A program made the position numbers and the translations under genes. DNA of 64,000 nucleotides from Chondrosia reniformis. Its lineage: Eukaryota > Porifera > Demospongiae > Chondrillida > Chondrillidae. The stretch covers positions 6,134,884-6,198,883 of the forward strand of contig OX359199.1 of the NCBI GenBank assembly GCA_947172415.1, written 5' to 3'. This document shows positions 42,134-62,409 of the stretch, one piece after another. Positions within the stretch are counted from its first letter, which is position 1; the number at the start of each line of letters is the position of its first letter. Under the pieces are notes generated by a model, which had not been told where the DNA came from, ran no database searches, and saw nothing but the letters and a program-made list of their open reading frames with translations.

Positions 42134-45100
42134 ATGGCTGGATTAGGGAAGGTAGGTTTGCAGGGAATCACTTGTTTGCCATTGCCCATATGTCACATTA
42201 CAAAAATTAGCAATTTGCTTTGAACAACAAACTGCAGTAAATAACGTGTGTATGCAATTAATAGATAAATTGGCCACGTTCCGTGCCAGATTCTGTCAAC
42301 ACTCATGGCTTGACGTCACTAGGACCACCTTTTGAAGATGAGAATGCTCTCAGGCTACGAGTGGGGTAAGTGTGCGACTCCTTAGATTACTGGCTATTAC
42401 GAGGTTTTACTACAATTTGGCCCTTTCAGTATTGAAGCACCTGAGTGCATATGAGTATAGTTATGAAGTGACCTATAGTATTTGTACTCATACTTACCGC
42501 CAAACTCATGTACTTGATGTACTCAGTGAGTACATATGTTCTTGTAACGTCTCCTTAGTGATGAGCCATATGCCAAGTCAAGCCCCTTTTTATCTCTGAG
42601 GGGTGGCAATAATGCATTACTACAGCACTCACCCCCTCAGACCCAAAGCCTACCGGTGGAGTTCTCACAAGGTGGAGTATCCCCATCCTCCACGAGTGCC
42701 CCAGTTACTAGCACTGAAGAGGTTAGAGGAGAAACAAAGTAAGGATTTTTGGAGGTCCCTCATCACTCAACCATCTCCTTAATTTGATATACTCACGAAG
42801 ATACCAGCTCTGCCTTATAAGCATACTCAATTCCTCCTTGCTTGTTTAGTGGGTCTGCTAATTTGGACGAGTGGAACCCCATGATGGATGACTTTACCTC
42901 ACCCACATTCAATGTCTACAGCAAGGGTCCAGGGGCTGATCTTCCCAAACCTCAGGCAGAAGACCTTAACCCGTAAGTCCACCTGAAAGATATTGTGCAT
43001 CACCCTTTAGAGGTAACATCTGTGAGCTGACACCATTGGCCTTGCGTTGATGGGAATCCTTCAACTTTGAGAGTGTATTCTGATAGCTCCCTCCCTGTAT
43101 CCATGTTGACTGATTCCACTGTCTTCTTGTTAGTGCTGAGGGATCCTTTGGTTATCTGAAGCAGTCAAGGGAATACAGAGCAAAGTACATGACCAGTAAG
43201 GGTGTGTCTCCTCCTTCTGGCTCCACCCACAATAAAATTGAGGGGGTTACCCTCTATGTTGCCAACATTCCAAGAGAAGTTTCAAAGGTATGTACGTATA
43301 TAGTGTTACCATCCACTTAGTAGTATGCAGACCACAAGAGAAAGCTTTTGGATTCTAATCTTTGCTAAGGGGCAAATCCCAATGATAGCAGTGTTGTAGT
43401 AAATGTACAAATGTTTTCCTCTCAAATGTACAAAAATAATCAACTTATCTACCGTTTCCTTGATCCTGTTGAATCTTTAGGATGGACTGAGAAAACTCTT
43501 TTCAAGAGTTGGTAATGTGCAAAAGATATTTATAGGACAGGATTCTAAGTGGCATGGCAACACAACCTTTGGGTAGGTTCCCTTAATTAAATGTACACCA
43601 ACAATTGAGCCAATGGTATTCTATTCTATTGTTTACAGTGTCATTTGTGTCCCTCTACAGATTTGTGCAATATGGAACCATCAAAGAAGCTGAGAGAGCC
43701 ATACTGGAGTTCAATGGATTTGAGATTGGTGCCTCTACCAAACTAATTGTGAAAATAAAACAAAGTGAGCAAGATAAAAAGAGAAAATCCCAGGACAGAG
43801 ATGAAACTACCTTCTATAACCAGCTTGGAGCTGGAGTTACTTCACCAGGTAGCCGAAACATGGAAGCCTTAGGGGATGACCAGTCCACCAATCAAAAGGT
43901 TCCTTGGATGTCCTTTGATGCACCTGCTGCCCCTTCATCCTCTGTGTCTCAAACGAATTCTCAGCCTCACAACATCGTGCAGCAGGGATCTACACTCCCT
44001 TTGCAGTCACCTACTGCAACTGTGGGATCTGCAGACAAGGAGTACACTCCAACCCAGCCTAGTGCAAGGTCACCATTTTCATCTTTAGCAAACCAATTTG
44101 CCTCTAATAAATCACTAGGGTCTCCCTCATCTCCTAATATGGAAAACCCAGTACCTAATTCTACATCACCTAAAATGCCAGATTTACAGAAGGTTCGAGT
44201 CTGCATCTTCTGTGGTAAGCCTAGTACAAAAAAGTGCTCTGTTTGTAAGACGCCTTACTGCAGCATTGAGTGTCAGACAAAGGACTGGGGGCAGCACTCC
44301 AAAGTCTGCCGGTCCCTAAGTGCTAAGGATAACCAGCAGCCAGCTGCATCAGACTCCAATCAGCCAATTAGGGTATCCACCAATGGTAGCACAGAATTTG
44401 ATGATGACTTTGATATCTCCCTCAGTCATCTCAACTTGGAATCTAGTTCTTTGTCACACCCTGAAGGTGTGGATCCTCAGCCCAACGAGACCTTGCCACG
44501 CCCAGAAGGTGTGGCTCCTCAGCCCAACAAGACCTTGCCACGCCCAGAAGGTGTGGCTCCTCAGCCTAACGAGACCTTGCCACGCCCAGAAGGTGTGACT
44601 CCTCAACCCAACGAGATCTTGCCACGCCCAGAAGGTTGGGCTCCTCAGTCCAACAAGACCTTGCCACGCCCAGAAGGTGTGGCTCCTCAGCCTAACACGA
44701 TACCAGTGCCATCTGCGCCTTCATCTCTGCCTGCAGATGGCCTTACTGACGAGCTGCACAGTTTGTCCATCGGCAGAGGTGATTCTGAGGATTCACTGCC
44801 TTCCATCCAAAACCTACCACTAACCTACTACGTTGAATACAGGTCCTCAAAGACCTTTCCAATTTTCACTTTCTTCTTTGGAGTTGTACAGTGCAAGGAG
44901 ATGATCACACTACCGGTGGAATTAGACAATCTCAAAGCAGCAGGCAATCTCAGAACAGTCAAGAGATGTGAGATTATTCCAAAGCGGACTCTGCTAACAT
45001 TACGGAATTCCAAATTAGTTAGAGTAGAAGTCCGTTCACCAGTTAAAGGTGATACCGTCTCAGTGCAGCTTGCTGATGAAGGTGGGTACATGGAGTGCGG

Positions 45101-48100
45101 AGTGGATAACCTGCTCTGTATCCCTCCAAAGCTTGCCTCCATTCCTCACCTCTGTCAAAAGTTTGTCCTCCACAATGTCTTAATCCTAGAGTACACAGAC
45201 CCAATGGAAGCAAAGGTATTTTTGGAGAGTATTATTAAGGATAAGGTGATTAAGATCACTCAAAAGGGCTCCAATAGCTTTGGCCATATGGTAGAGGTGT
45301 TCCTAAAGGATGGTACTAAGGTGAACGACCTGGTGTCCAATAGCCGATTTGCAGTAGCAGGAATCCCAGTTGCCTCCAAAGAATCGACGCTTCATAAACC
45401 AACAGACAACCCTCATGTTCCACTCACAAGTATGCTGGACTTCCACAAGCCTCCGCTGTGTGGAGAGATTTTTGAGCTATTCCCCACTTTGGTGTATAAT
45501 CCTACTCATCTCTGGGCTCAGGTCAGACACCTCCACTTGGAGAACCTGGCACACCTCATCCGAGACATGACGGCTTACTATTCTCTGATGTCGTCCTATG
45601 GGTACAGGCCACACATTGGAGAGGCAGTGGCTGCACTCTGGGAGAAGGACAACTGTTGGTACAGAGGTGACACCATTAGCCACAATCAGGATGGATCTGT
45701 CTTTATTCGATTCTTTGACTTTGGAAACAAAGAGAATGTACAGCAGCATAACATTCGTAAGTTGGAAAACAAGGCCTTCCTTACCCTGCCTCGCCAAGCT
45801 ATACACTTTCAACTGGCCTACGTGCAGCCAGTGGACAGTATTGGGAAGCATGAGAAGAATATTAATTGGCCAAAAGAGGTGATTGAGGCCATCATTAACA
45901 AGATCCAGAACAAAGTTGTTAAGGCCAAAGTTATTCATTTCACAAAACCGTTCAACTTTTTTATAGAAGCATGGTTGCCAGGTAATGAGAACACTACTTC
46001 CATTAATGAATGGCTGGTGCAATGTGGAATGGCCAGCAAATGTGGTCTCCCGGATAACTTGCGTCCCCTCCCACTCGGTAACGAGGCACTCAAAGGGATT
46101 GGTAGAGCCAGTACTGTACTGAAGTTGGTCCATGGCATCACACCAGGGCAGAGAGGACCTCAGGCGCCAGCAGAATGGTTCCCTTTGAGCAGTAGAGGTT
46201 GCAGTCCTATTTTACCAACTCCTAGTTTTGTACAAGGGACTCCCCCTTCTCTTGGTTCCAAAGATAGTCCACTAGAGCAAAGGAGCTTCATTTCAAACTC
46301 AAACCATGGAACTCAGATTCACCAGTTATCATTGGATAGTCCTAGCTCTCAGATTGTTCAGTCTGTTGGAGCTTTGAATGGCGAAGGATATAGTAGCCAC
46401 AAAGAGACCTCAGAAAACTGGACTCACTCCTCCAATAACCCAAAGCTGAGTGGAGCATCGCCCAAAAAACAGGGTTTAGCAAGTTGGACTCCTAATGATT
46501 ACAGTGAAGGGAACACTATTAAGAATCTTTCCCCTGACATTCGAAGCGAAAAGTCAAAAATACCTTGGACTTCTAACCCAGGACAACAGACCTCCAATCC
46601 GGGTCATAGGTCATCTAACCCAGGACAACAGACCTCCAATCCGGGTCATAGGTCATCTAACCCAGGACAACAGACCTCCAATCCGGGTCATAGGTCATCT
46701 AACCCAGGACAGCAGACCTCCAATCCGGGTCATAGGTCATCTAACCCAGGACAACAGACCTCCAATCCGGGTCATAGGTCATCTAACCCAGGACAGCAGA
46801 CCTCCAATCCGGGTCATAGGTCATCTAACCCAGGACAGCAGACCTCCAATCCGGGTCATAGGTCATCTAACCCAGGACAGCAGACCTCCAATCCGGGTCA
46901 TAGGTCATCTAACCCAGGACAGCAGACCTCCAATCCAGGTCATAGGTCATCTAACCCAGGACGTCAAACTTCAGGCACTGTTCCTGCTCAAAGAAGCCCC
47001 AAGCCTTTGGAGGTTACAGTGAAGAAGGAGCCGATCTTTGATGATTCATGTGAGAGTAGTCAACTGGGAAGTGTATCTGGAAACTCTTCTCAAGTACCCA
47101 CTACTTCAGAAGGAACTGTCTACTACCAATCCCAGCCAGCACTTCAACAGTTGACTGCTACGTCAAGTGAACCTCCGTCTGCTCCCCTTCCTCTGAAGGG
47201 ACAACAAGTGCCTGTGTTAGTGACGCATGTCCACACAACTGAGGACTTTAGTGTGCAAGTTCTGGATGAAGCATCGTTGAAACAACTAAATGACATGTCT
47301 GTGGGGGCTTTAAAGCAATTTGCTGTTACTAAGACTCCTTCTCTGGGTAGCCACTGCATGGCCAACTACCTGGGAGACTACTACAGAGCCAAGGTAATGA
47401 AGGTGATTAGTGCCAGTGAGGTAATTGTCAACTTCATTGATTTTGGTAACACTGAAAGAGTATCGCTAGGTTTGTTGAAGCAGATTGACCCAGGATATTT
47501 GTCACTGCCAGCACTTGCTCTTCACTGTAAGTTGTCCGACATACAGGCTTTAAGACAAGGAGGACTGGAATATTTCAAAAACCTCGTACTAGACCAGCAA
47601 GTGGTGGCAGATGTCAAAGAGGTTCTTCTTAACCAGACAGTGTCTGTCAGCTTGACTCTACCCAACGGGATGGTTGTCAGAGAGCTGCTTGATAAGCAGG
47701 GCTTCTTGTCTTCACCTGGCACAGCTGCAACATCAGTGCAGCCTTTGCTCTCTGAAACACCCAAAAACCAGTTAAACCCATCCAGCAAGGTGATAATAGT
47801 AGAGGTACAGTCTCCTTCCTCCTTCTGGGTACAGTATGGGACTCAGGAAACATTGGATACATTGGTTAAACTAAACGAAGACATCCAATCGTTTGTTGGC
47901 TCAGGGAGTGCTCAACTTCTTCCCCAGTCTGTGCCACCAGGGATTGTCTGCCTTGCATTGTTCCCAGATGATTCCAAGTGGTACAGAGCAGCATTCGTGA
48001 GATACTCCTCTGAGGGCTCAATTGTACGCTTTATAGATTACGGCAACTCAGTAGCTGTCACTCCTGAGAACCTAAGAGCAATTCCTCAGTCTCTGTTGGC

Positions 48101-50234
48101 CACTCCCCCTCAAGCCTTCCATTGTGCAATGGCTGATATTGAGCCTTCCAGCCAGCAGTGGACACAAGGAGCTATTCAGTTCTTGAGTGGTTTCATGGAT
48201 ACACTTCTTACTGTGGTTATGTGTAAACACAGACAAGATATTTACCATATTGATCTTTTGCATCAGTCCGATTCAATGAAGCAATCTCTAATATCAAAAG
48301 GATGGGCTAAGTTGATGTCTGCTTCTGCCTCAGTTAAAGCAGCCACACTTCCATCTGGTCCTTTCAGTGCTCTAGTTATGCATGTCGAGTCACCTGACAG
48401 CATCTGGTTCCAGCTCGATAATGGCGATAACCAAAAGAAGTTGATGAACTTGTACGAGAACTTGTCTGCTTATTGCAAGAACTGTGCACAGGAGAGTGTT
48501 CTGTGGAAAGAAGGGGAATTTTGTGCTGTCCTCAATTCTGAAGATGAAATATGGTACAGAGGACAGATATTGAAAACCTCCTCAAATAATGTCCAGGTAC
48601 GCTTCATTGATTTTGGTATGAGTCACTCCAGCACAGTTCAGCATCTGAGGCCTCTCACTGCCCCCTTGGCAGATTTCCCTTCACAAGCCATCCAAGGGAA
48701 ACTAGCTGAAGTTGTTTCTGTGACTGAGAGTGACATGTGGCCCAAACCTGCGATAGCATTCCTCAACCAAATGATTCTGGAGAAACAAGTGACCGTTTCA
48801 GTCACAAGTAGAAATGGACCTGTCTATGTAGTAAAGATTAAGCTTAAAGATCAACAAGTTGATGAGGCACTCATTAAAGCTGGCCACGCCCTTTATCTTC
48901 CACAAGTTGATCAGTCTATTCCATCTTCTTTCACAAGGCCAAAAGAAGTGTCTCCTTTCCAACCTCTTGTTCCTACTCAAGCCATGAAACCCGCGAAGCA
49001 GAAGGCTTCACCAGAAATACAAGATGCTAAGCATAAGCCAGTGAGAATCTTGTTGAGTGAGTGTAAGTGGGTCCAGCTGCCATCAAGTGAGAGGTTCAAT
49101 GTGTTGGTGTCTCATGTCTTATCAGTGGGAAAGTTTTGGATTCAAGTTGCTGAGAGAGAACACATCTCTGGTCTAATGCAACTAATGGAGGCCATTAGCA
49201 ATCATACCAAGTCACCACAAGTGAGCCCTTACCAGAAGCCTCCTGTTAAGGATGAGCTCTGTCTTGCACTCTTCAGTGAAGATCAGAATTGGTACAGAGC
49301 GTCAGTTATTGATGTTTCTGGCTCTGTAGTCACAGTCCAGTTTGTAGACTTTGGAAACATGGACACTGTATCTCCAGCTTCGCTGCTCAAAATTCCTTCT
49401 AGTCTCCTGTCTCTCCCTATCCAAGCAGTGGAGTGTGCACTAATAGGAGTACCCCAAGCAGAGCATAGCTCTCCCTCGCTCTCTGTAACAAATGCCTTTA
49501 AGAGAGCTACTGATGGACGGTGCCTGGCCTGTGAGGTGTACTCGAGGGATCCCCTTTGTGTTAGTCTGCTTGATCCATCTACCTCAGGTACTTCAGTACG
49601 TGATTCCCTTGTTAGAGCTCAGCTCCTTCCTGTTATTGAGGATAAAGCAATGGTCAAGGTGGAACAAACTAGGCTGCCCATGTCAGATATGACCACAGTG
49701 TTGATATCGCATGCTAATTCCCCCGGAGACTTTTATGTCCAAATCATTACCCAATCGTCCATCAGCAACTTTGAACACTTGACCAGGAAAATGAACGAAT
49801 ACTGTAATGGAAGGCCAAGTGGATCCCCAAGTATTCATTATGGGCAGCTGTTATGTGCCAAGTTTTCTGAGGACCAAATGTGGTATCGTGCTAGAGTGAT
49901 TAGTTTTGTGGATAAATCCACTGCTCTAGTTCAGTTTATTGACTTTGGTAATACAGACATCGTGTCCTTGAATGATGTGATCCCCATCCACCCAGATCTC
50001 ACTCACCTGCCAGGCCAGGCCGCTCACTGCTGTCTGGTGGGGTATGAAGGTGGAGAAGTTGTTGATAAGGGTTTGACATCCAGATTCAGTTCTCAAACTT
50101 CTAATAAACCATTAAATGCTCTCTGCAAAGGATTATCATTCAGAGCAGGAGGGAGTATCAGAAGTGTTGTGGAATTGGTTGACACTACAACATCAAATGA
50201 TGTGAAGATCAGCTCATCCTTAGCAAGTCACTAG
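42134..50234 (+). CDS. RRM-MYND-multi-Tudor protein (TDRD1-like)
   Basis: Seven exons: 42134-42151, 42265-42365, 42559-42738, 42850-42972, 43134-43287, 43481-43572 and a 6.6-kb last exon 43661-50234; 2413 residues. Domains in order: RRM (TLYVANIPREVS; FVQYGTIKEAERAILEFNG, about residues 180-260); MYND finger (CIFCGKPSTKKC...CSIECQTKDWGQHSKVC, about 404-440); a 14-residue repeat RPEGVAPQPNETLP (6 copies); a degenerate then two further Tudor regions; a second, unrelated 14-residue repeat SNPGQQTSNPGHRS (9 copies, 46573-46962); and more extended Tudor domains. Six carry the aromatic/acidic core (FFDFGN, FIDFGN, FIDYGN, FIDFGM, FVDFGN, FIDFGN). Such proteins bind symmetric dimethyl-arginine on PIWI proteins and scaffold piRNA granules. 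The short first exon is inferred. Confidence 0.9.
44462..44702 (+). repeat. 42-bp coding minisatellite
   Basis: Six tandem copies encoding RPEGVAPQPNETLP variants inside the Tudor gene, between the MYND finger and the first Tudor region. Unit lengths stay multiples of 3. Probably a disordered linker. Confidence 0.9.
46570..46965 (+). repeat. 42-bp coding minisatellite, 9 near-identical copies
   Basis: Nine copies of a 42-bp unit encoding SNPGQQTSNPGHRS between Tudor regions. Copies differ almost only by silent changes (caacag/cagcag), suggesting recent expansion or homogenisation. Confidence 0.93.
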
Positions 50235-50896
50235 ACTTCACTCCAATCTACCATTTCTTCATTTATTCACATGCGTACACTTACACTTTGAACTGCAGCT
50301 TCACACGCTAAACACAGTAAGTTGTATTCACTTGTAGCAGTTGTGCACACTCTGTTATGAATTGTTGATGAGTTTATGCATCATTCCTATTCTCATTTCA
50401 ATTTGATTTAAATTGAGAATGAGTCATTAGTGATGCCACATCAGAGGAGTTTGTGATAACTACCTGCTTTGTGTGACTGTGTTACCATACAGCAGTAGGC
50501 TTTAACACAAACTGACAATGTATACTGTAATTAAAATTTCAGCTGCTAATGATAAGTTTTGCAAACAGCTGTAGTGACACCCCTACGAGAGTTAGTTTTA
50601 ATAACAATTTCGCTTAAGTATATAGGTGTCAAAAATAGGAAAGCTTTAAGATCTAAAGCTGATCTTAAAGCATCAATATCATCATCATTGGACTCTGGAT
50701 ACAGGTGTCTCTTACTGACCAAAGTTGTGCATGTATGTACATATTTCATCTCAACAACTCTTTTTCCTATAGGTCAGTGGACTTATGAACCTGCTATCTA
50801 ATACTCAGTTATAATTGTATGCTCATTTATTCATAGATTTGTGTTTGGACACTGCTTTTTGAATGACTGTTTTATCGATTCTTCTTTATTATCAAT
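50235..50896. other. 3' flank of the Tudor gene
   Basis: AT-rich sequence with no supported gene. Confidence 0.5.
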
Positions 50897-51274
50897 TCTT
50901 GTATTTTGATAAGTTAAGTACACATTCCTGCAAGAAATGGCTAATTGACCATATAGGACAACTGTATGGCAGCCATGACATATTATGATGCAAAAAAGGA
51001 GATAGTTGTTACAATAAGTGAAAATGGATGGACAATACGTTTCAGTAGTTAAAATGCAATCATACAAAAACAGCATGGACTATAGATTTAAAACATTTAT
51101 GAAATAATAGTCTCTGTCATAGTTGTGCTCATAAAACTACATTATACAGAAATCCATTCTAATTCTTTCTTCTTCTTTAGAAAATATTTCTTGAAAGCCA
51201 TAAAAGCAAAACCATCAAAGATGGTGAGTCGTATCTCCTTTAATGGACAGTCTTTAGGGTACTGATAGCTCAAA
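50897..51274 (-). pseudogene. duplicated fragment of the RING-macro gene 3' end
   Basis: About 380 bp nearly identical to 55783-56164, covering the 3' flank and most of the last exon of the macrodomain gene (YPKDCPLKEIRLTIFDGFAF; stop included). It breaks off inside the exon at 51274, with no acceptor or upstream exons. It is therefore a non-functional gene fragment lying 4.9 kb from its source. Confidence 0.9.
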
Positions 51275-51420
51275 CACAATTATGGACTCTTCTCTTCGGA
51301 GGACTGATTTCGTATAATTTCTTTCACTTACAAATTTATTAATGTACAATCACATTTGTCTTATCTCTCACGCGATAACTACTTAGCTAGAAATTGATTT
51401 AGTCTCTAACGTTATGAAGA

Positions 51421-52329: not shown

Positions 52330-52899
52330 ATAGTACTCCTTAGCACGGTCGTCGGGCTTTCCAAGTTTGTTTTTCGATGGCTTCGAGATATTAGTCGTTC
52401 TAATGCCAAAGGTTAAATAAACACATTCAAAAAGAAAGAAGAACAATCGGTTTTGGAAGGCGCTTTGCCTGAAGGTGCAGTTAACTTGGACTTGATCGTT
52501 TATGGCGAACTAGGTAATGTGCTCTGCATTAGGGAATGAATCATTAAATATCGAGGTTAGACAGTTCGTTTTAATTCTCTCAGGATAGAAAAGCGTAGAA
52601 TACATTGAAGCGTTGGTTAATCATAGCGACTCACAGCCAGGTTTAGCAGCACGTAGGCCATGCAATGACACAACTCCAATACGCGCTCGCATGTATAAAC
52701 AATATATAGTCCGTATTTTTTGCTTTAAAATAAGACCGTGGATTCATATGCATACAATTTTCCATAATTATATCTTATATGCTGCTCCCATTCTTCATCC
52801 ACATGTACAAGTAGACGATGCTTAACATTCAGTGTACTTTAAGCACCGGAAAGCAAATGGGAACAGTTTGGGTCTGCAACTACTAAACCTACAGATGTA
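52330..52899. other. unassigned stretch between repeats
   Basis: No supported gene. A GGTGCTTAA/TTAAGCACC-like word pair appears near its right end (52816-52852), announcing the array. Confidence 0.5.
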
Positions 52900-55250
52900 T
52901 GATTAGCTGGTGCTTAAGCCAAATAGTAGATTAAGCACCAGGAGGACTATAGGAGCTGCAAGGTGTCATTTCAAGTCACCTCGATTGCATTTTCCAATAG
53001 TACCAGGTTTTCTGGTGCTGAAGACAAAAAGTGGGTTAAGCACCAGTAGGACTATAGGAGCTGCAATGTGTCATTTCAAGTCACCTCGATTGCATTTTCC
53101 AATAGTACAAGGCTTGCCGGTGCTTAAGCCAAAACGTGGGTTAAGCACCAGGAGGCCAATAGGAACTACAAGGTGTCATTTCAAGTCACCTCGATTGCAT
53201 TTTCTAATAGTACCAGGTTTTCTGGTGCTGAAGACAAAAGTGGATTAAGCACCAGGAGGCCTATAGGAGCTGCAAGGTGTCATTTCAAGTCACCTCGATT
53301 GCATTTTCCAATAGTACAAGGCTTGCCGGTGCTTAAGCCAAAACGTGGGTTAAGCACCAGGAGGCCAATAGGAACTACAAGGTGTCATTTCAAGTCACCT
53401 CGATTGCATTTTCCAATAGTACAAGGCTTGCTGGTGCTTAAGCCAAAAAGTGGGTTAAGCACCAGGAGGCATATAGGAACTACAAGGTGTCATTTTAAGT
53501 CACCTCGATTGCATTTTCCAATAGTACCAGGTTTTCTGGTGCTGAAGACAAAAAGTGGATTAAGCACCAGGAGCCCTGTAGGAGCTGCAATGTGACATTT
53601 CAAGTCATCTCGATTGTATATTTCAATAGTACAAGGCTTGCCGGTGCTTAAGCCAAAACGTGGGTTAAGCACCAGGAGGCATATAGGAGCTGCAAGGTGT
53701 CATTTCAAGTCACCTTGATTGCATTTTCCAATAGTACAAGGCTTGCCGGTGCTTAAGCCAAAACGTGGGTTAAGCACCAGGAGGCATATAGGAGCTACAA
53801 TGTGTCATTTCAAGTCACCTCGATTGCATTTTCCAATAGTATCAGGCTAGCCGGTGCTTAAGCCAAAACGTGGGTTAAGCACCAGGAGGCATATAGGAAC
53901 TACAGGCTGTCATTTCAAGTCACCTCGATTGCATTTTCCAATAGTATCAGGCTTGCCAGTGCTTAAGCCAAAAAGTGGATTAAGCACCAGGAGCCCTGTA
54001 GGAGCTGCAATGTGTCATTTCAAGTCATCTCGATTGCATATTTCAATAGTATAAGGCTTGCCGGTGCTTAAACCAAAAAGTGGATTAAGCACCAGGAGGC
54101 ATATAGGAGCTGCAATGTGTCATTTCAAGTCACCTCGATTGCATTTTCCAATAGTATCAGGCTAGCCGGTGCTTAAGCCAAAACGTGGGTTAAGCACCAG
54201 GAGGCATATAGGAACTACAGGCTGTCATTTCAAGTCACCTCGATTGCATTTTCCAATAGTATCAGGCTTGCCAGTGCTTAAGCCAAAAAGTGGATTAAGC
54301 ACCAGGAGCCCTGTAGGAGCTGCAATGTGTCATTTCAAGTCATCTCGATTGCATATTTCAATAGTATAAGGCTTGCCGGTGCTTAAACCAAAAAGTGGAT
54401 TAAGCACCAGGAGACATATAGTAGCTGCAATGTGTCATTTCAAGTCACCTCGATTCCATTTCCCAATAGTATCAGGCTTGCCGGTGCTTAAACCAAAAAG
54501 TGGGTTAAGCACCAGGAAGCCTATAGGAACTACAACGTGTCATTGCAAGTCACCTTGATTGCATTTTCCAATAGTATCAGGCTAGCCGGTGCTTAAGCCA
54601 AAAAGTGAGTTAAGCACCAGGAGACATATAGGAACTACAAGGTGTCATTTCAAGTCACCTCGATTGCATTTTCCAATAGTACCAGGCTTGCCAGTGCTTA
54701 AACCAAAAAGTGGGTTAAGCACCAGGAGCCCTGTAGGAGCTGCAATGTGTCATTTCAAGTCATCTCGATTGCATATTTCAATAGTACAAGGCTTGCCGGC
54801 GCTTAAGCCAAAACGTGGGTTAAGCACCAGGAGGCTTATAGGAGCTGCAATGTGTCATTTCAAGTCACCTCGATTGCATTTTCCAATAGTACCAGGCTTG
54901 CCGGTGCTTAAACCAAAAAGTGGGTTAAGCACCAGGAGCCCTGTAGGAGCTGCAATGTGTCATTTCAAGTCATCTCGATTGCATATTTCAATAGTATCAG
55001 GCTAGCCAGTGCTTAAGCCAAAACATGGGTTAAGCACCAGGAGGCATATAGGAACAACAAGGTGTCATTTCAAGTCACCTCGATTGCATTTTCCAATAGT
55101 ATCAGGCTTGCCGGTGTTTAAGCCAAAACGTGGGTTAAGCACCAGGAGGCATATAGGAGCTACAAGGTGGCATTTCAAGTCACTTCGATTGCATTTTTAA
55201 TAGTACAAGGCTTGCTGGTGCTTAAGCCAAAAATTGGATTAAGCACCACT
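52900..55250. repeat. 105-bp satellite array, about 22 copies
   Basis: Units contain an inverted pair GGTGCTTAA...TTAAGCACC separated by about 13-14 nt, giving a strong potential hairpin in every copy, then CATTTCAAGTCACCTCGATT and 'ttccaatagta'. The period is mostly 105 (a few 104). As 105 is divisible by 3, a 35-residue repeat (LKPKSGLSTRRPIG, CHFKSPRLHFPIV) stays open over long stretches. Blocks of three units repeat with 315-bp spacing: 53854-54168 and 54169-54483 are almost identical, a higher-order repeat. No start, splice context or codon bias supports a protein. Confidence 0.95.
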
Positions 55251-55470
55251 GTAGTTGATCCAACTGCTGGCTTCTTCGGTGGTAGTGTAAGCTTGATACT
55301 CGCGTCACTGGCTTTTCACACCTACTATACTATACATCTGTTGCTTAAGTTAACAACAGCAGATTTGATGTAACCAAAACCTTTACATTTTATCACATTC
55401 TCATGACATATGCAAATATACATGCATGGCTACTGGGAGTATATATAGACCATTTTGTAACTTCCACATG
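55251..55470. repeat. right-hand part of the dispersed repeat
   Basis: It begins exactly where the 105-bp array ends, with a segment reading VVDPTAGFFGGSVSLILASL (compare 52035 and 2845). Further on, 'gcatggctactggg' and 'tatagaccat' match 3155-3180 downstream of repeat copy 1. So this looks like the 3' portion of the same repeat, separated from its 5' portion (51421-52118) by the array. Confidence 0.65.
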
Positions 55471-56028: not shown

Positions 56029-58481
56029 TTATACAGAAATCCATTCTAATTCTTTCTTCTTCTTTAGAAAATATTTCTTGAAAGCCATAAAAGCAAAACC
56101 ATCAAAGATGGTGAGTCGTATCTCCTTTAATGGACAGTCTTTAGGGTACTGATAGCTCAAACACGCATCAATTAACACCTGTGCCACCACCTAGGCAGAT
56201 TGAAATGCACACAAGTATGATAAATAACACAAAGGCAAAGAAAAGCACTTGTATTGAATGCATAACACTGGAGTATAGAATATGGATAGCTACAGTCACT
56301 GAAGTGTACACTACATAACATTGACTAGCATAACTTAGGACTCACTTTTGTGTCCATGCTATATGCTCCAGCACTAATGGAAGGAATGGCCAGGGCTGAT
56401 ATTTTAAGCTGCAAAGCTTCCTTCAATACATTCTCACATGCTTCCTTTAAAAGTGTAGTTGCAGCCTCTGCCCCATACCTACGAGCGTCAGGCCCCACCA
56501 CACAGATGACATAGTTACAGCTCAGGTTGCCCTCTGCTCCAAAGGCAACAGTTTCAGAAGTGTTTAACTTTTTCTTCTTCCTGATGTAGGCAGAGGACAT
56601 GGTTTGGAGGTAACCATTGCTAGCTCTGTTTATAGCTCCTGCACATCCACCGTCATGAAAGAGGTATGGGTCCACAGGACACACTATGGCATCCACTGTC
56701 TCATTCACAATATCACCTTCCTTCAGCTGTAACGATGGAATGTGACCGTCCTTTGCTGCTATCACTAGAGGGTACAGTTGCCTATATGAATCACTTAAAA
56801 CAGTAAACACGCTATATTGAGTAAAACATTGTATACAGATACACTTGAATTTCTTAGACTGTATATTTCCTATCTAATTTGATGTAGTAGCTTATACAGG
56901 TCCTAATCTTTATCTACAAGGGTTAATGCTCTAAATGTCACATCTAGATTTTGAGCACTAGCTGAATCAAAATTACATGCTTTAATTACATACAGGTTTA
57001 CCAAACATAATCATACTACTTTACTCACTCTATTCTGCTGGGCATCCTTCTTTTACCGCTCAAATGAAGAACACTGCCCACTGCTCTATCATTCCTTCCA
57101 TCTGCTCCATCATTCCTTCCATCTGCTCCATCATTCCTTCCATCTGCTCCATCATCCTCCTCCTCATAATCACTGATGTTTTGAGCAAAAGAAGATGGCA
57201 TTAAGGAGGAACCTCCTGCTGATATACGCTTTCTGGCACGAGGGATTGACCTCTTCCATCCAAAGTACTGAGCAAGATTACGTCCCCAGGAGTGTGGTCG
57301 TCTCTCCTCCTCATGTCCCTGTCCTAGTACTAATGTATATTCCAGGAAAGAGAGTAACATCAAAACTTAACAATTCACTTGTGTATGACAACAATACATA
57401 ATACAGACAGCTAATAAGTAAAGGTTCTACAAGTTATCAAATATATTGTACACGTCCTGGTTAAAAACACTTTACTCAAACACTCTTTTCTAAAATATGA
57501 AGTAGCAAAGGTCCGTACCTTCAATGGGCTCTTCAGTGTGTTTCCTCTCATTCTCCTTTAGATCATTCTCCCTGCTCACGGAGGCCACATTAGCTGCCTC
57601 ATACTGATCCAATCGCTCCTCAAGTAGTACAATTTTCTTCTCACTCACTAACAGCTGCTCCTCCAGGACAGAGTTGCGTTTCTCTACTAGGTCCATCTTC
57701 TCCACCAACATCTCCATGTGGTTTTGGATACACGTGTCCAGGTGGTCCTTCAATTCCTTTCTCTTCAGCTCAAGATGGCACCCAACCCTTTCAAAGGTAC
57801 AGCTTACCGGCTGAAAGGGGCAGCTCTCCAAGTGATCTGACAGCTCACAGCGTGGGAAGGACTTTAGCTCACAAGAGTTGGGACAAACTGTTGGAAACTT
57901 GTTACACACTGAAAAGTGGTCCACTAAGCTGCGTTTAATATGGTACAAAAATGCAAAATATCAGAATATATTCAATGAGAATCAGTATATATGTACTTTT
58001 GTCCAGTTGCCTTCACTTCGCAGTAGGGACACTTTTGAAGTCTACACGGACAGTCCTCTTCAACATGATTGCCTAGCTCTTTCCGTCCTACCTCGCGTCC
58101 GCACCCCAGAGGACACTTTACTTGCACAAACTGACAAGGCCCAACCTCCTGACCCACACTCAAATGTGCTTCGATGTTAGCCAGCGGACCCGTCCACTCG
58201 CACCCGGAACTTCTCAGCTCGCAGTACACCTTCAGATCTCTGGTTCGGTTGCGTTCCTTTCGATTCAGCAACGTATGGGTCACGTCCATCTTGCAGAGAG
58301 GACAAGGCTTGCCTTTCTCTCTCACTTCATTGATACAAGTGAAGCAGAAGTGATTCCCACAACAGCTGGTGAGATGCGGCTCTCTCATCACGAGGAGGCA
58401 GACTGGACACTCTAGCTCGGACGGAGGAGCGTCGAGGAAATCGTAGCTATAACCACCGGAAACCACCCTTTCTAGCGCCAT
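56029..58481 (-). CDS. RING - TRAF zinc finger - coiled coil - macrodomain protein 1
   Basis: Five exons: 57997-58481, 57519-57928, 57029-57323, 56346-56781, 56029-56190; 595 residues. Domains: C3HC4 RING (CPVCLLVMREPHLTSC, GNHFCFTC, CPLC; residues 25-65); TRAF-type zinc fingers (CQFVQVKCPLGCGREVG, CPYCEV, VCPNSCELKSFPRCELSDHL, CTFERVGC; to about 240); coiled coil (VEKMDLVEKRNSVLEEQL onward); a linker with ADGRNDG repeats; then a macrodomain (SLQLKEGDIVNETVDAIV; GGCAGAINRAS; LAIPSISAGAYSMD; IDACLSYQYPKDCP). A normal TRAF would end in MATH; here a macro fold replaces it. Expected role, by inference: ubiquitin ligase directed by ADP-ribose or an ADP-ribosylated partner. The usual catalytic NAAN segment is replaced (IVCPVDPYL), suggesting a reader rather than a hydrolase. 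Its start is 38 bp from the P450 start. Confidence 0.9.
57088..57160 (-). repeat. 21-bp coding repeat in the linker exon
   Basis: About 3.5 copies of a 21-bp unit encoding ADGRNDG within the linker exon of RING-macro gene 1; absent from gene 2. Confidence 0.9.
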
Positions 58482-58519
58482 TTTTCAAGAGTTACATAAC
58501 GTTACTCAATAGGTCAGAG
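58482..58519. promoter_or_regulatory. 38-bp divergent intergenic region, RING-macro 1/P450
   Basis: Only 38 bp separate two divergent start codons. It contains the near-palindrome GTTACATAAC. Each gene's promoter or 5' UTR must overlap the other's transcribed region. Confidence 0.55.
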
Positions 58520-60016
58520 ATGTGGTTCCTTTCTGCTCCCCAATTTTGGATTACCCTGATCCTTATAATGCTGGCAGCAGCATTGCTTTTCAGCAGAGCT
58601 CGAGGTCATCCTACTCGTAAGGAGCCGCCGGGACCCTGGGGTCTACCTCTCCTTGGCTACCTGCCCTTCGTGGGAAGGAAGATGCACCTCAAGCTAACTG
58701 ACCTTGCTAAGAGATACGGCGATGTCTATCAGATTCGACTTGGAAGTCGCAAGATAATTGTAGTGAACGGCCAAAGAGCTATCAAGAATGCGCTGGTAGG
58801 AAAAAACGATTTCGCAGGAAGACCAGATTTTTATTCTTACCGCACATTTAGCAAATCTTCTGGAGAGGGAAATCTTGGAGGTTTTGAAACATATTCACCA
58901 GAATACATGGCTAAAAAACAAGCTTTAGTCAGAATTATTCACTCCTTCACTCATAATCGTCGAGAGGAGCTTGGTAAAGTAGCGCAGGAGGCTCTAGACT
59001 ATCTTGTCGGTGAAATTGAGAAGCGTGATGGCGAGCCCTTTCATCCTGAACCGATCCTGTATCGTACTGTTTCCATTATAATGGGTTATATCTGTTATGG
59101 CAAAGAGTATGATAAGGATTCGCCTCATGTAACTCAGCTACTAAATACAGCCAATAATTTTGGAAAGCTAGTGGCATTTGGCGTTTTGTACGATTACATT
59201 CCTGTCATTGGATTTTTGTTGAAAGACAGACTAAAGAAATTTGAAGAGTTACTGCAGATATTGTCAGAATGTCAGGAAAAAATGGCACCTGCCAGCAAAG
59301 AAGCTCTCTTAAAAACATATGAAGAATCAAAGAAAACTGTGGACAAAGAGGGAAAAGCTTTTATAATTACTGAAGATAATGTTGCAGACATTGCACGCCA
59401 ATTATTTAGTGCTGGTTTTGGACAAATAGCAACAACTCTTGATTGGGCTATAATGTTGATGGCAGTACATCCAGAAGTGCAGCAGAAAGTGCAGAAGGAG
59501 ATTGAGGATGTTGTTGGACTAGGTAGTGAAATCCAGTTTGATGATGAGAAAAGACTTCCTTACACTGTTGCAACTGTTCATGAAGTGTTGCGATACCATT
59601 CAATGGCACCACTGGCAATCACACACTCCACCATCTGTGACACTGAACTAGATGGTTACTTCATTCCAAAAGACACTGCTGTCATTATCAACTTGTACTC
59701 AGTACATAGAGACAGCACTCTATTTCCCAACCCTGATACCTTTGACCCTGACAGATTTATAAAGGAGGACGGTAGCCTGAACAAGGAAGTGATGAATAAT
59801 GTCATACCCTTCAGTTTGGGTCAGAGACGCTGTTTTGCAGAATCTCTCTCTCGCTTGGAGATCTTTGTTTTCTTTGCCTCCCTTCTATCTCGCTGCACCA
59901 TAGAGGAGTCCCCAGATCACCCACTGGACCCCAACAATCACGTGCTGACCTTTGGGCTATCCCTGAACCCCTATAAGGTCATCATTCGATCAAGGACTGA
60001 TGACAAGGAGGATTAA
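58520..60016 (+). CDS. intronless microsomal cytochrome P450
   Basis: Single exon, 498 residues. N-terminal membrane anchor (FWITLILIMLAAALLF), proline-rich hinge (PPGPWGLPLLGYLPFVG), ExxR (EVLR in ATVHEVLRYHS), PERF-type FDPDRF, and heme-binding loop PFSLGQRRCFAES with the Cys ligand. The family consensus ends C-x-G; here it is C-F-A. The I-helix reads SAGFGQIATTLDW where CYP1/2/17-type enzymes have AGxDT: the acid-alcohol pair is replaced by Gly-Gln. Overall it resembles the CYP2 clan (CYP1/17-like). Substrate unknown. It sits between two RING-macro paralogues on the opposite strand. Lack of introns among intron-rich neighbours suggests an old retrocopy or intron loss. Confidence 0.93.
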   Translation: MWFLSAPQFWITLILIMLAAALLFSRARGHPTRKEPPGPWGLPLLGYLPFVGRKMHLKLTDLAKRYGDVYQIRLGSRKIIVVNGQRAIKNALVGKNDFAGRPDFYSYRTFSKSSGEGNLGGFETYSPEYMAKKQALVRIIHSFTHNRREELGKVAQEALDYLVGEIEKRDGEPFHPEPILYRTVSIIMGYICYGKEYDKDSPHVTQLLNTANNFGKLVAFGVLYDYIPVIGFLLKDRLKKFEELLQILSECQEKMAPASKEALLKTYEESKKTVDKEGKAFIITEDNVADIARQLFSAGFGQIATTLDWAIMLMAVHPEVQQKVQKEIEDVVGLGSEIQFDDEKRLPYTVATVHEVLRYHSMAPLAITHSTICDTELDGYFIPKDTAVIINLYSVHRDSTLFPNPDTFDPDRFIKEDGSLNKEVMNNVIPFSLGQRRCFAESLSRLEIFVFFASLLSRCTIEESPDHPLDPNNHVLTFGLSLNPYKVIIRSRTDDKED

Positions 60017-60282
60017 CATTTTCCAGATTAAATTGAAAGGCAGTACTGACATGCATAAACACTAATGATATATTATATTTTGGCACAAACTTTTATTTAC
60101 TATAACTTACATTCCTTGGTATTAATAGAGTATATATCATGCAGAGGTTATATAATACATATGTATACAGAAAAAAATTGATTTATTGCAACCATTCAAA
60201 TTATAAGTAAAGTAAACTTAAAAATATTTGAAATTGTGTACTGTATAAGACCTATGTACAAAGAAATGTACGTAGTTTCAAC
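60017..60282. other. convergent 3' region of P450 and RING-macro 2
   Basis: 266 bp of AT-rich sequence between converging stop codons; presumably two 3' UTRs. Confidence 0.5.
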
Positions 60283-62409
60283 TTAGTCCTTCTGCAAACC
60301 ATCTCTCTTTCCTTTAAAGTACTTCTTAAAAGTGGTAAATATATACTTTTCAAAAATGATAAGTCGTATCTCTTTCAATGGACAGTCTTTGGGGTATTCA
60401 TAGTCCAAACATGTATCAATTAGCACTTTAGCCACAACCTGTCCATACATATACAGATATATTAGATAGAGCAACATCACATCCACTATACAACCTAATT
60501 AATGCAAACAGTTGAACTGCTTCGGTATGAAAATTCACATCTTCCAAAACTTAAGCATATAAGAATACTTACACTGCTATCCATTCCATAATGACCAGCT
60601 GATATAGAAGGTAGTGCTAGTGAGGTCACCTTCAGCTGGATTGCAGACTTCAGCACATTCATGCAAGCCAACCTCAGCAACGACTCTGCCATCTGTAACT
60701 TATACCTGTAGACATTTGGGGCTACCACAGCGATCACATAATTGCACTTGAGGTTCCCCTCCGATCCAAATGCAATCGCGTCACCAGTGCTCACATGCCC
60801 GTGCTCTTTGGCATAAGCAGTTGTGACCTTCTGCAGGTAGCCTCCACTGGCCCTGTTCACCACACCAGCAAGGCCGCCTGTGTGCTTAAGGGTTGTATCT
60901 GTTGATGTGATGATTGCATCAACAACCTCCTCCACAATATTCCCATATTTTAGCTGCAAGCAAGGAACACCACTGCATTGGTTGGCTATCTCAAGAGGTC
61001 TCAAGGAGCTATAAAGGCATACAGTCAATACTGCATGAAATGTGAGAAGATTAACTGGACTGGAGCACGCTCACCTCATCTCATCCTGCCCAAGGTAATC
61101 ATCATCAGTATATCGGTTAGCTTCATCTGAACCCTTACAGTACTTGCTTGATACCTTCTGCTTCTTCAGTCTTGAGTCTGAGCTCCTCATTCCAAAGAAC
61201 TTTGCTACTTGTTTACGTTTTCCTTCCTTAGGTACCTTTAAACTAAGTTCTTTGTCTTCTTCTAATATATGGAAATGGAGAGAAACAACACTCTAAGCAA
61301 TTGACAGAAACTTTAGTACATTTCAAATTGAGCCAGAAGATGCTAGTTCAATCAAAAAGCTACCAAATATACTATATACAGTTTAATTATGGTATATTGC
61401 TTTGCCAACACATAACAGCTTATTTGAGCTGTGAAAGACAAATGCTAAAAATAACCTTCTTTCAGTGTCTCTTCTACAGGACTCTCCTTTAGATCATTCT
61501 CCCTGCTCACGGAGGCCACATTAGCTGCCTCGTACTGATCCAGTCGCTCCTCAAGTAGTACAATTTTCTTCTCACTCACTACTAGCTGCTCCTCCAAGAC
61601 AGAGTTGCGTTTCTCTACTAGGTCCATCTTCTCCACCAACATCTCCATGTGGTTTTGGATACACGTGTCCAGGTGGTCCTTCAATTCCTTTCTCCTCAGC
61701 TCAAGATGGCACCCAACCCTTTCAAAGGTACAGCTTACCGGCTGAAAGGGGCAGCTCTCCAAGTGATCTGACAGCTCACAGCGTGGGAAGGACTTTAGCT
61801 CACAAGAGTTGGGACAAACTGTTGGAAACTTGTTACACACTGAAAAGTGGTCCACTAAGCTGCGTTTAATATGGTACAAAAATGCAAAATATCAGAATAT
61901 ATTCAATGAGAATCAGTATATATGTACTTTTGTCCAGTTGCCTTCACTTCGCAGTAGGGACACTTTTGAAGTCTACACGGACAGTCCTCTTCAACATGAT
62001 TGCCTAGCTCTTTCCGTCCTACCTCGCGTCCGCACCCCAGAGGACACTTTACTTGCACAAACTGACAAGGCCCAACCTCCTGACCCACACTCAAATGTGC
62101 TTCGATGTTGGCCAGCGGACCCGTCCACTCGCACCCGGAACTTCTCAGCTCGCAGTACACCTTCAGATCTCTGGTTCGGTTGCGTTCCTTTCGATTCAGC
62201 AACGTATGGGTCACGTCCATCTTGCAGAGAGGACAAGGCTTGCCTTTCTCTCTCACTTCATTGATACAAGTGAAGCAGAAGTGATTCCCACAACAGCTGG
62301 TGAGATGCGGCTCTCTCATCACGAGGAGGCAGACTGGACACTCTAGCTCGGACGGAGGAGCGTCGAGGAAATCATATCCATAGCCTCCGGATGTACTCTC
62401 TGACGCCAT
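60283..62409 (-). CDS. RING - TRAF zinc finger - coiled coil - macrodomain protein 2
   Basis: Five exons: 61928-62409, 61456-61859, 61075-61261, 60573-61008, 60283-60438; 554 residues. RING, TRAF fingers and coiled coil are nearly identical to gene 1 (only a few changes such as LELRRK for LELKRK). The linker is shorter and different but keeps an aromatic motif (VAKFFG; gene 1 has LAQYFG) next to basic residues. The macrodomain is clearly diverged: LQLKYGNIVEEVVDAIITST, GGLAGVVNRASGGYLQ, GDAIAFGSEGNLKCNYVI, LALPSISAGHYGMD, IDTCLDYEYPKDCPLKEIRL. Intron 2 uses GTTATT as donor, the weakest join. Probable function as for gene 1, with a different ADP-ribose-type ligand or partner. It is divergent from the CSN1 gene. 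Confidence 0.9.

Follow-up and report, generated by a model that had tools for sequence, protein, structure and literature searches.

The 64,000-nucleotide window analysed here, positions 6,134,884 to 6,198,883 of contig OX359199.1 in the Chondrosia reniformis assembly GCA_947172415.1, carries two minus-strand genes, referred to as A and B, that look to encode genuine single-chain fusion proteins. Each joins a TRAF6-like head (RING, TRAF-type zinc fingers (zf-TRAF) and coiled coil) to a macrodomain of the PARP14 kind at the position where TRAF proteins carry MATH. Our best explanation of this architecture is a one-chain, ADP-ribose-guided ubiquitin ligase, a reading to which we assign a probability of about 0.6. 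The fusion itself, the fold of a relative, the age and constraint of the macro exons and the absence of MATH are supported by the analysis presented below.

Gene A is modelled in five exons on the minus strand: exon 1 (61928-62409) with the ATG, the RING and the first zf-TRAF region; exon 2 (61456-61859) with the second zf-TRAF region and the coiled coil, followed by a phase-1 intron; exon 3 (61075-61261), a linker modelled with low confidence, and probably disordered, in its relative P0001; exon 4 (60573-61008) with the main part of the macrodomain (macro match C11:6195456-6195788); and exon 5 (60283-60438) with the end of the macrodomain and the stop. Gene B follows the same plan on the same strand, with the ATG, RING and first zf-TRAF region in exon 1 (57997-58481), the second zf-TRAF region and coiled coil in exon 2 (57519-57928), a linker with a short GADGRND-type repeat in exon 3 (57029-57329), the main part of the macrodomain in exon 4 (56346-56781; macro match C11:6191226-6191561) and its end with the stop in exon 5 (56029-56190). 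Scripted splicing at these joins, which are predicted and were chosen to test the gene model of a preliminary description of this DNA, yields products of 554 residues for gene A and 597 for gene B, both ending in a stop, with GT-AG at all joins and intron phases of 2,1,2,0 in both genes. The earlier claim that each gene splices RING, zf-TRAF, coiled coil, linker and macrodomain into one frame is thus borne out, and its lengths of 554 and 595 residues are recovered as well, the latter through a tandem acceptor 6 nt deeper in exon 3 of gene B (TAG/TACTAG/). The introns sum to 462 bases in gene A and 659 in gene B. Exon 3 is unequal in length in the pair, at 187 nt in gene A versus 301 nt in gene B (38 codons apart), with poor alignment between them.

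Pfam scans identified zf-TRAF in two stretches in each protein (78 bits in A and 77.2 in B, cut-off 27) and Macro in both (67.1 bits in A and 69.3 in B, cut-off 22). The same scans returned no MATH row for A or B at E-values up to 0.05 and no DTC row for either, and a PARP catalytic domain was absent from the scans of A, B, both frames of the further fusion gene C, frame D, P0001 and P0081 (PF00644 for A, B and C). By these features the proteins combine a TRAF-like head with a true macro tail and belong neither to the TRAF family (no MATH), nor to Deltex (no DTC), nor to the macroPARPs (no PARP domain). The absence of MATH at the loci, proposed in the preliminary description, also holds for the surroundings: none of at least 112 genome matches to the TRAF-type MATH profile PF21355 lies near the fusion loci, the last on C11 being at 1.08 Mb and thus no less than 4.8 Mb from them, with PF22486 left out of the genome-wide search.

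The same joining of head and tail recurs beyond the window, where the evidence for it is stronger. A further gene, C, lies on the same contig at a distance of 171 kb from A and B and has the same domain order, with a first frame of RING, zf-TRAF and coiled coil in L081 (4154-3338, minus strand) and a second exon (3162-1142 of L081), set apart by an intron predicted at 175 nt, with a canonical Macro domain at 112.3 bits. This join falls in phase 1, as does the second intron of A and B; it was picked for an AAG/GT donor and a pyrimidine-rich acceptor, and because many other frame-keeping GT-AG pairs exist the equal phase is agreement and not proof. A protein search with the A+B+C alignment returned at least 65 relatives and a search with the gene C protein at least 69, both counts being lower bounds since the 7,997 and 7,994 candidates scored were those sharing the most words; named relatives include proteins of Dysidea avara (P0046, P0094), corals and fishes. 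Best by far in the first search was P0001 (1.6e-165, the next at 1.3e-68), a full-length relative of 643 residues that carries both zf-TRAF and Macro and comes from a JGI metagenome contig of 2,257 bases. Its alignment with A and B is free of gaps where exon 1 meets exon 2 and where exon 4 meets exon 5. Its coding part takes up 1,932 bases including the stop, which leaves 325 bases compared with the 462 and 659 intron bases of A and B, so that P0001 most probably represents a transcript or a gene that has no introns. The second search contained P0081, a protein of 1,071 residues on a 365,920-base contig with zf-TRAF at 68.5 bits, Macro at 101.8 and a RING at 19.2 bits, below the cut-off of 27. 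P0081 is probably an unspliced frame, because it shares its source label with P0066 and P0067, gene calls that start from GTG codons inside the unspliced frames of genes C and F and whose source calls genes without splicing. A protein search with the macro part of B alone (residues 415-597) gave no matches among 979 candidates and also missed P0001.

Two further frames on the same chromosome, D (1,134 residues) and E (498 residues, with no in-frame ATG ahead of the RING), join RING/zf-TRAF and coiled coil to macro-like domains with no need for splicing, and D has a near-identical relative, P0071 (1,018 of 1,088 aligned residues identical). The macro-like domains of D and E align over most of their length with the genome's macrodomains, the hhalign probability being 88 across 162 columns and 78 across 146, values obtained from very few sequences, and the probability between the two macro-like types is only 8.5. 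Pfam gave no match to the macro-like domains of frame D at E-values up to 0.5, nor to those of gene F beyond its first macro. Gene F is a macro frame with no RING part on its strand within L082; in its structural model strands and helices follow the same order in the first macro-like type (residues 400-599), with predicted local distance difference test values of 73-93 by block and 52 in the last, and the second type can be placed only tentatively, the model being of low confidence there. The model of F runs along the PARP14 macro 1-2 tandem over 360 residues at a root-mean-square deviation of 21 Å, the two domains not being superposed at once. For C and F, a similarly low-confidence strand and helix order suggests a KH-like domain at the N-terminus, and no KH profile matched the second frame of gene C in the Pfam scan. 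A hand estimate from 35 macro and 115 head matches in 117 Mb puts the number of same-strand, correctly ordered head-macro neighbours within 2 kb expected by chance at about 0.03 (0.017 with the rounder figures 20 and 100); those observed are A and B, which are related duplicates, and C.

Structural comparison of the P0001 model is consistent with this assignment at both ends. Its head matches the RING-zinc-finger fragment of TRAF6 (3hcs, 5vo0) in Foldseek, including 166 columns at 2.0 Å against TRAF6 in its complex with Ubc13~Ub; the RING fold match comes from Foldseek only, the VIA lists having been filled by macrodomains. A long helix is modelled at residues 229-272, in keeping with a coiled coil, and the tail matches macrodomains. 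The C-terminal macrodomain put forward earlier is therefore found by sequence in A and B and by fold, in a model, in P0001, where structure prediction could have rejected it and instead recovered it. Among solved macrodomains, PARP14 is the best sequence relative of the gene A domain.

Head and tail have had different histories. The 5' part of gene A (61483-62373, minus strand) shows 7 differences to its counterpart in gene B (57552-58442, minus strand) in 880 nt compared, about 99% identity, with an identical 68-nt intron 1 and similarity falling off on both sides of the tract. The macro exons of the pair are saturated at synonymous sites (proportions of differing sites of 0.77 for synonymous, pS, and 0.31 for nonsynonymous, pN, in a scripted count), 25 of 36 same-family fourfold codons differ, and a library routine gave a nonsynonymous rate (dN) of 0.41 and no usable synonymous rate (dS). 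Since pS is saturated at 0.77 while pN is 0.31, the macro tails are old and held by selection. The near-identity of the heads suggests that they were recently equalised, most simply by gene conversion; the alternative is that a head was copied recently ahead of an old macro tail. A 3' end was copied recently too, as a third-copy fragment of gene B exon 5 and its 3' flank shows at 50889-51305 (minus strand; place C11:6186043-6186162). It aligns with the gene B 3' end in three listed repeats at 97%, 93% and 84%, the repeat stopping roughly where the splice acceptor lies, and the genome profile searches list neither a head nor a macro exon 4 match next to it.

TRAF proteins oligomerise through their coiled coil. 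By the same route the coiled coil of A and B would make an oligomeric protein whose macrodomains could bind mono-ADP-ribose on a target with avidity, an expectation that follows from the oligomerising TRAF-type head and has a precedent in DTX3L-PARP9. The RING would then recruit a ubiquitin-conjugating enzyme (E2) and either ubiquitinate the target or build a signalling chain on it, with PARP14-like enzymes as the putative writers of the mark and stress or antiviral signalling as a possible setting. Ligase activity, ADP-ribose binding and an immune role are thus what we infer from the architecture, and with such a design a cell could ubiquitinate anything that carries ADP-ribose.

Several observations weigh against this reading, and they concern in turn the reality of the fusion, the RING and the macrodomain pocket. 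As to the first, A and B do not count as separate pieces of evidence, their 5' 0.9 kb being near-identical in sequence. The joins of A, B and C are all predicted, with the many frame-keeping GT-AG pairs in C, and the public gene call P0066 covers only the macro part of gene C, but begins at an internal GTG of an unspliced frame. Splice guessing might accordingly have misjoined two adjacent genes, one for a MATH-less RING/zf-TRAF protein and one for a macro protein. We regard such a splicing artefact as very improbable, because gene C shows the same order and P0001 and P0081 each unite the two parts in a single protein; the phases of A and B are moreover equal, and frames D and E need no splicing. 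It is C, D, E, P0001 and P0081 that lend the fusion independent support.

The second point concerns the RING. The best RING profile stays below its cut-off of 27.3 bits in A (23.6) and B (23.5), P0001 scores alike at 22.6 bits, and frame D has no RING profile at cut-off in the Pfam scan. The RING loop of A, B and P0001 reads CCGNHFC, with an Asn at the usual RING His position and the histidine thereby displaced; a CCGNH(F/Y) loop is present in 37 of the 52 proteins, among 134 fetched, that match the RING loop pattern. These features would suit an ADP-ribose-sensing adaptor, in which the head is structural as in scaffold TRAFs and the macrodomain brings the oligomer to ADP-ribosylated sites for other ligases or kinases. 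This adaptor function is unlikely in our judgement: the RING of gene C exceeds its cut-off (35.1 versus 27 bits), and the fit of the P0001 model to TRAF6 of the TRAF6-Ubc13~Ub complex indicates that an E2-binding platform may be intact.

The third point lies in the macrodomain itself. According to passages of PMC10221186, an active macrodomain hydrolase is recognised by Asn or Ser together with Gly in loop 1 and by a hydrophobic-aromatic pair in loop 2; they also report recurrent loss of macrodomain activity in macroPARPs. In a register set by the PARP14 alignment, the catalytic Asn is Asp in A, B and P0001, the GD(I/L) motif has Asn for Asp in A and P0001 and is compatible in B, and gene A alone has a His in loop 2; the loop 1 Gly-Gly and the loop 2 S-A-G-x-Y are kept in all three proteins. 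The residues of an active hydrolase are accordingly incomplete in A, B and P0001 and present, by sequence, in gene C, which keeps the full hydrolase motif, and in P0081, where the residues of both loops are retained and the GD(I/L) Asp is not. The lost catalytic Asn, together with the Asn in GD(I/L) of A and P0001, makes the predicted ADP-ribose binding less sure, and in the light of the recurrent losses among macroPARPs the fold in A and B could have been kept as a protein-protein or other-ligand module after reader function was lost. We consider this loss rather improbable, given that loops 1 and 2 are retained and that an Asp at the Asn site is compatible with binding in viral Mac1, where, according to the part of PMC10499221 concerned, the Asn-to-Asp form bound ADP-ribose in the crystal with activity below 1%. 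That precedent makes the A, B and P0001 macrodomain probably a reader without hydrolase activity rather than an eraser. A reader role is expected to be surer for B than for A, because of the Asn in the GD(I/L) motif and the loop 2 His of A. A ligase-tethered eraser, whose macrodomain strips ADP-ribose from a substrate due for ubiquitination, would suit gene C and P0081, which keep the Asn, the Gly and the loop 2 hydrophobic-aromatic pair and could, from these residues, either read or erase. It cannot be the shared function unless other chemistry operates, since A, B and P0001 lack the Asn, and we think it a poor candidate.

Profile searches of the wider genome, made frame by frame with the best candidates scored and hence giving lower bounds on matches rather than genes, returned 35 macro, 43 PARP-catalytic, 1 DTC, 115 RING/zf-TRAF head and 112 TRAF-type MATH (PF21355) matches. 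The many PARP14-like genes fit a passage in PMC4245714 that reports many such genes for a sponge and a placozoan. The sole DTC match listed is at C5:125910-126368, and the PARP match nearest A and B among those listed (C11:5933649-5934041) has in-frame stops and lies more than 250 kb off. MATH-bearing head frames are common elsewhere, for example in arrays at C2:9.3-9.4 Mb and C3:6.6-6.7 Mb. Four other head frames were scanned with Pfam: L056, L058 and L065 have no tail over cut-off in frame, and L064 (1468-2538, minus strand) combines an N-terminal SH3 (24.5 bits, cut-off 22.9) with the RING/zf-TRAF head in one frame. A further kind of macro fusion appears in P0092, P0097 and P0098, for which kinase and Macro domains are listed together. 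A tentative and somewhat doubtful extension of the ligase reading is that in this lineage the TRAF ligase head was joined to macro modules more than once (A/B/P0001; C/P0081; D/P0071; E), giving one-chain ADP-ribose sensors beside expanded PARP14-like writers, with conversion keeping the heads uniform while the macro sensors diverge, as in innate immune receptor families, and with corals arriving independently at a Deltex-type ligase.

Within the window, an intronless cytochrome P450 gene (58520-60016, plus strand, 302.5 bits in Pfam) lies between genes A and B. Its ATG is 38 bases from the divergent ATG of gene B, and the two genes may have a common promoter. A satellite of 105-bp units adjoins gene B at 52817-55320 (22 overlapping copies listed), and its repeat peptide also occurs in a frame of L082 (3473-3850, minus strand). 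A single open frame of 2,215 residues at 43587-50234 (plus strand) resembles, by eye, a MYND and multi-Tudor protein (TDRD1-like) with a SSNPGQQTSNPGHR repeat.

MATH-less RING/zf-TRAF ligases are familiar from TRAF7 and PDZRN3, which have the same head and another C-terminal module, WD40 and PDZ respectively; we know of none that carries a macrodomain. In agreement with the preliminary description, which did not recognise the RING/zf-TRAF/macro architecture as described, no description of it was found in the open-access literature searched, including passages of PMC12687431, PMC4245714 and PMC8195603. If our reading is true, ubiquitin-ADP-ribose coupling has been assembled more than once in animals, and these proteins would offer a compact single polypeptide for reconstituting ADP-ribose-dependent ubiquitination. 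A macro tail that reads ADP-ribose with a natural Asp would moreover be the natural counterpart of an engineered, binding-competent and nearly inactive macrodomain.

Comparison with known systems places the fusions between several families. With TRAF6 they have in common the zf-TRAF array, the coiled coil and, by profile matches below cut-off in A and B, the RING, and the modelled P0001 head superposes on it; the MATH of TRAF proteins is replaced by a macrodomain in A and B. To the macroPARPs PARP14 and PARP9 they are related through the macrodomain, PARP14 supplying the solved macrodomains closest in sequence to that of A, but the fusions have no PARP catalytic domain. Coupling of ubiquitin and ADP-ribose is known also in ligases containing WWE domains or zinc fingers, as passages of PMC12687431 relate. 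DTX3L-PARP9 uses two chains and a C-terminal Deltex RING-DTC, and oligomerisation matters for its reading, according to the part of PMC10955461 concerned. By analogy A and B could be a one-chain counterpart of its ligase (DTX3L) and macro reader (PARP9), here with a TRAF-type N-terminal head and no DTC at the locus. Single polypeptides with macro and ligase-type domains are also present in corals: P0104 of Stylophora pistillata is RRM-KH-Macro-RING-DTC in the Pfam scan, with no zf-TRAF row and KH_DTX3L below cut-off, P0119 of the same species has RRM, KH_DTX3L, Macro and DTC with no RING row, and P0116 of Montipora foliosa has, by its listed domains, Macro and Deltex ligase-type domains. P0104 and P0119 are apparent one-chain DTX3L-PARP9-like proteins, and the coral coupling looks like an independent solution. 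Of the earlier proposal of a one-chain ADP-ribose-guided ligase, the RING/zf-TRAF/coiled-coil/macro fusion in one chain therefore stands, and the novelty of a one-chain macro-ligase as such does not, since it has a coral precedent in P0104; with its macrodomain in the middle and a Deltex-type ligase, that precedent differs in both head and order from the TRAF-type build of A and B.

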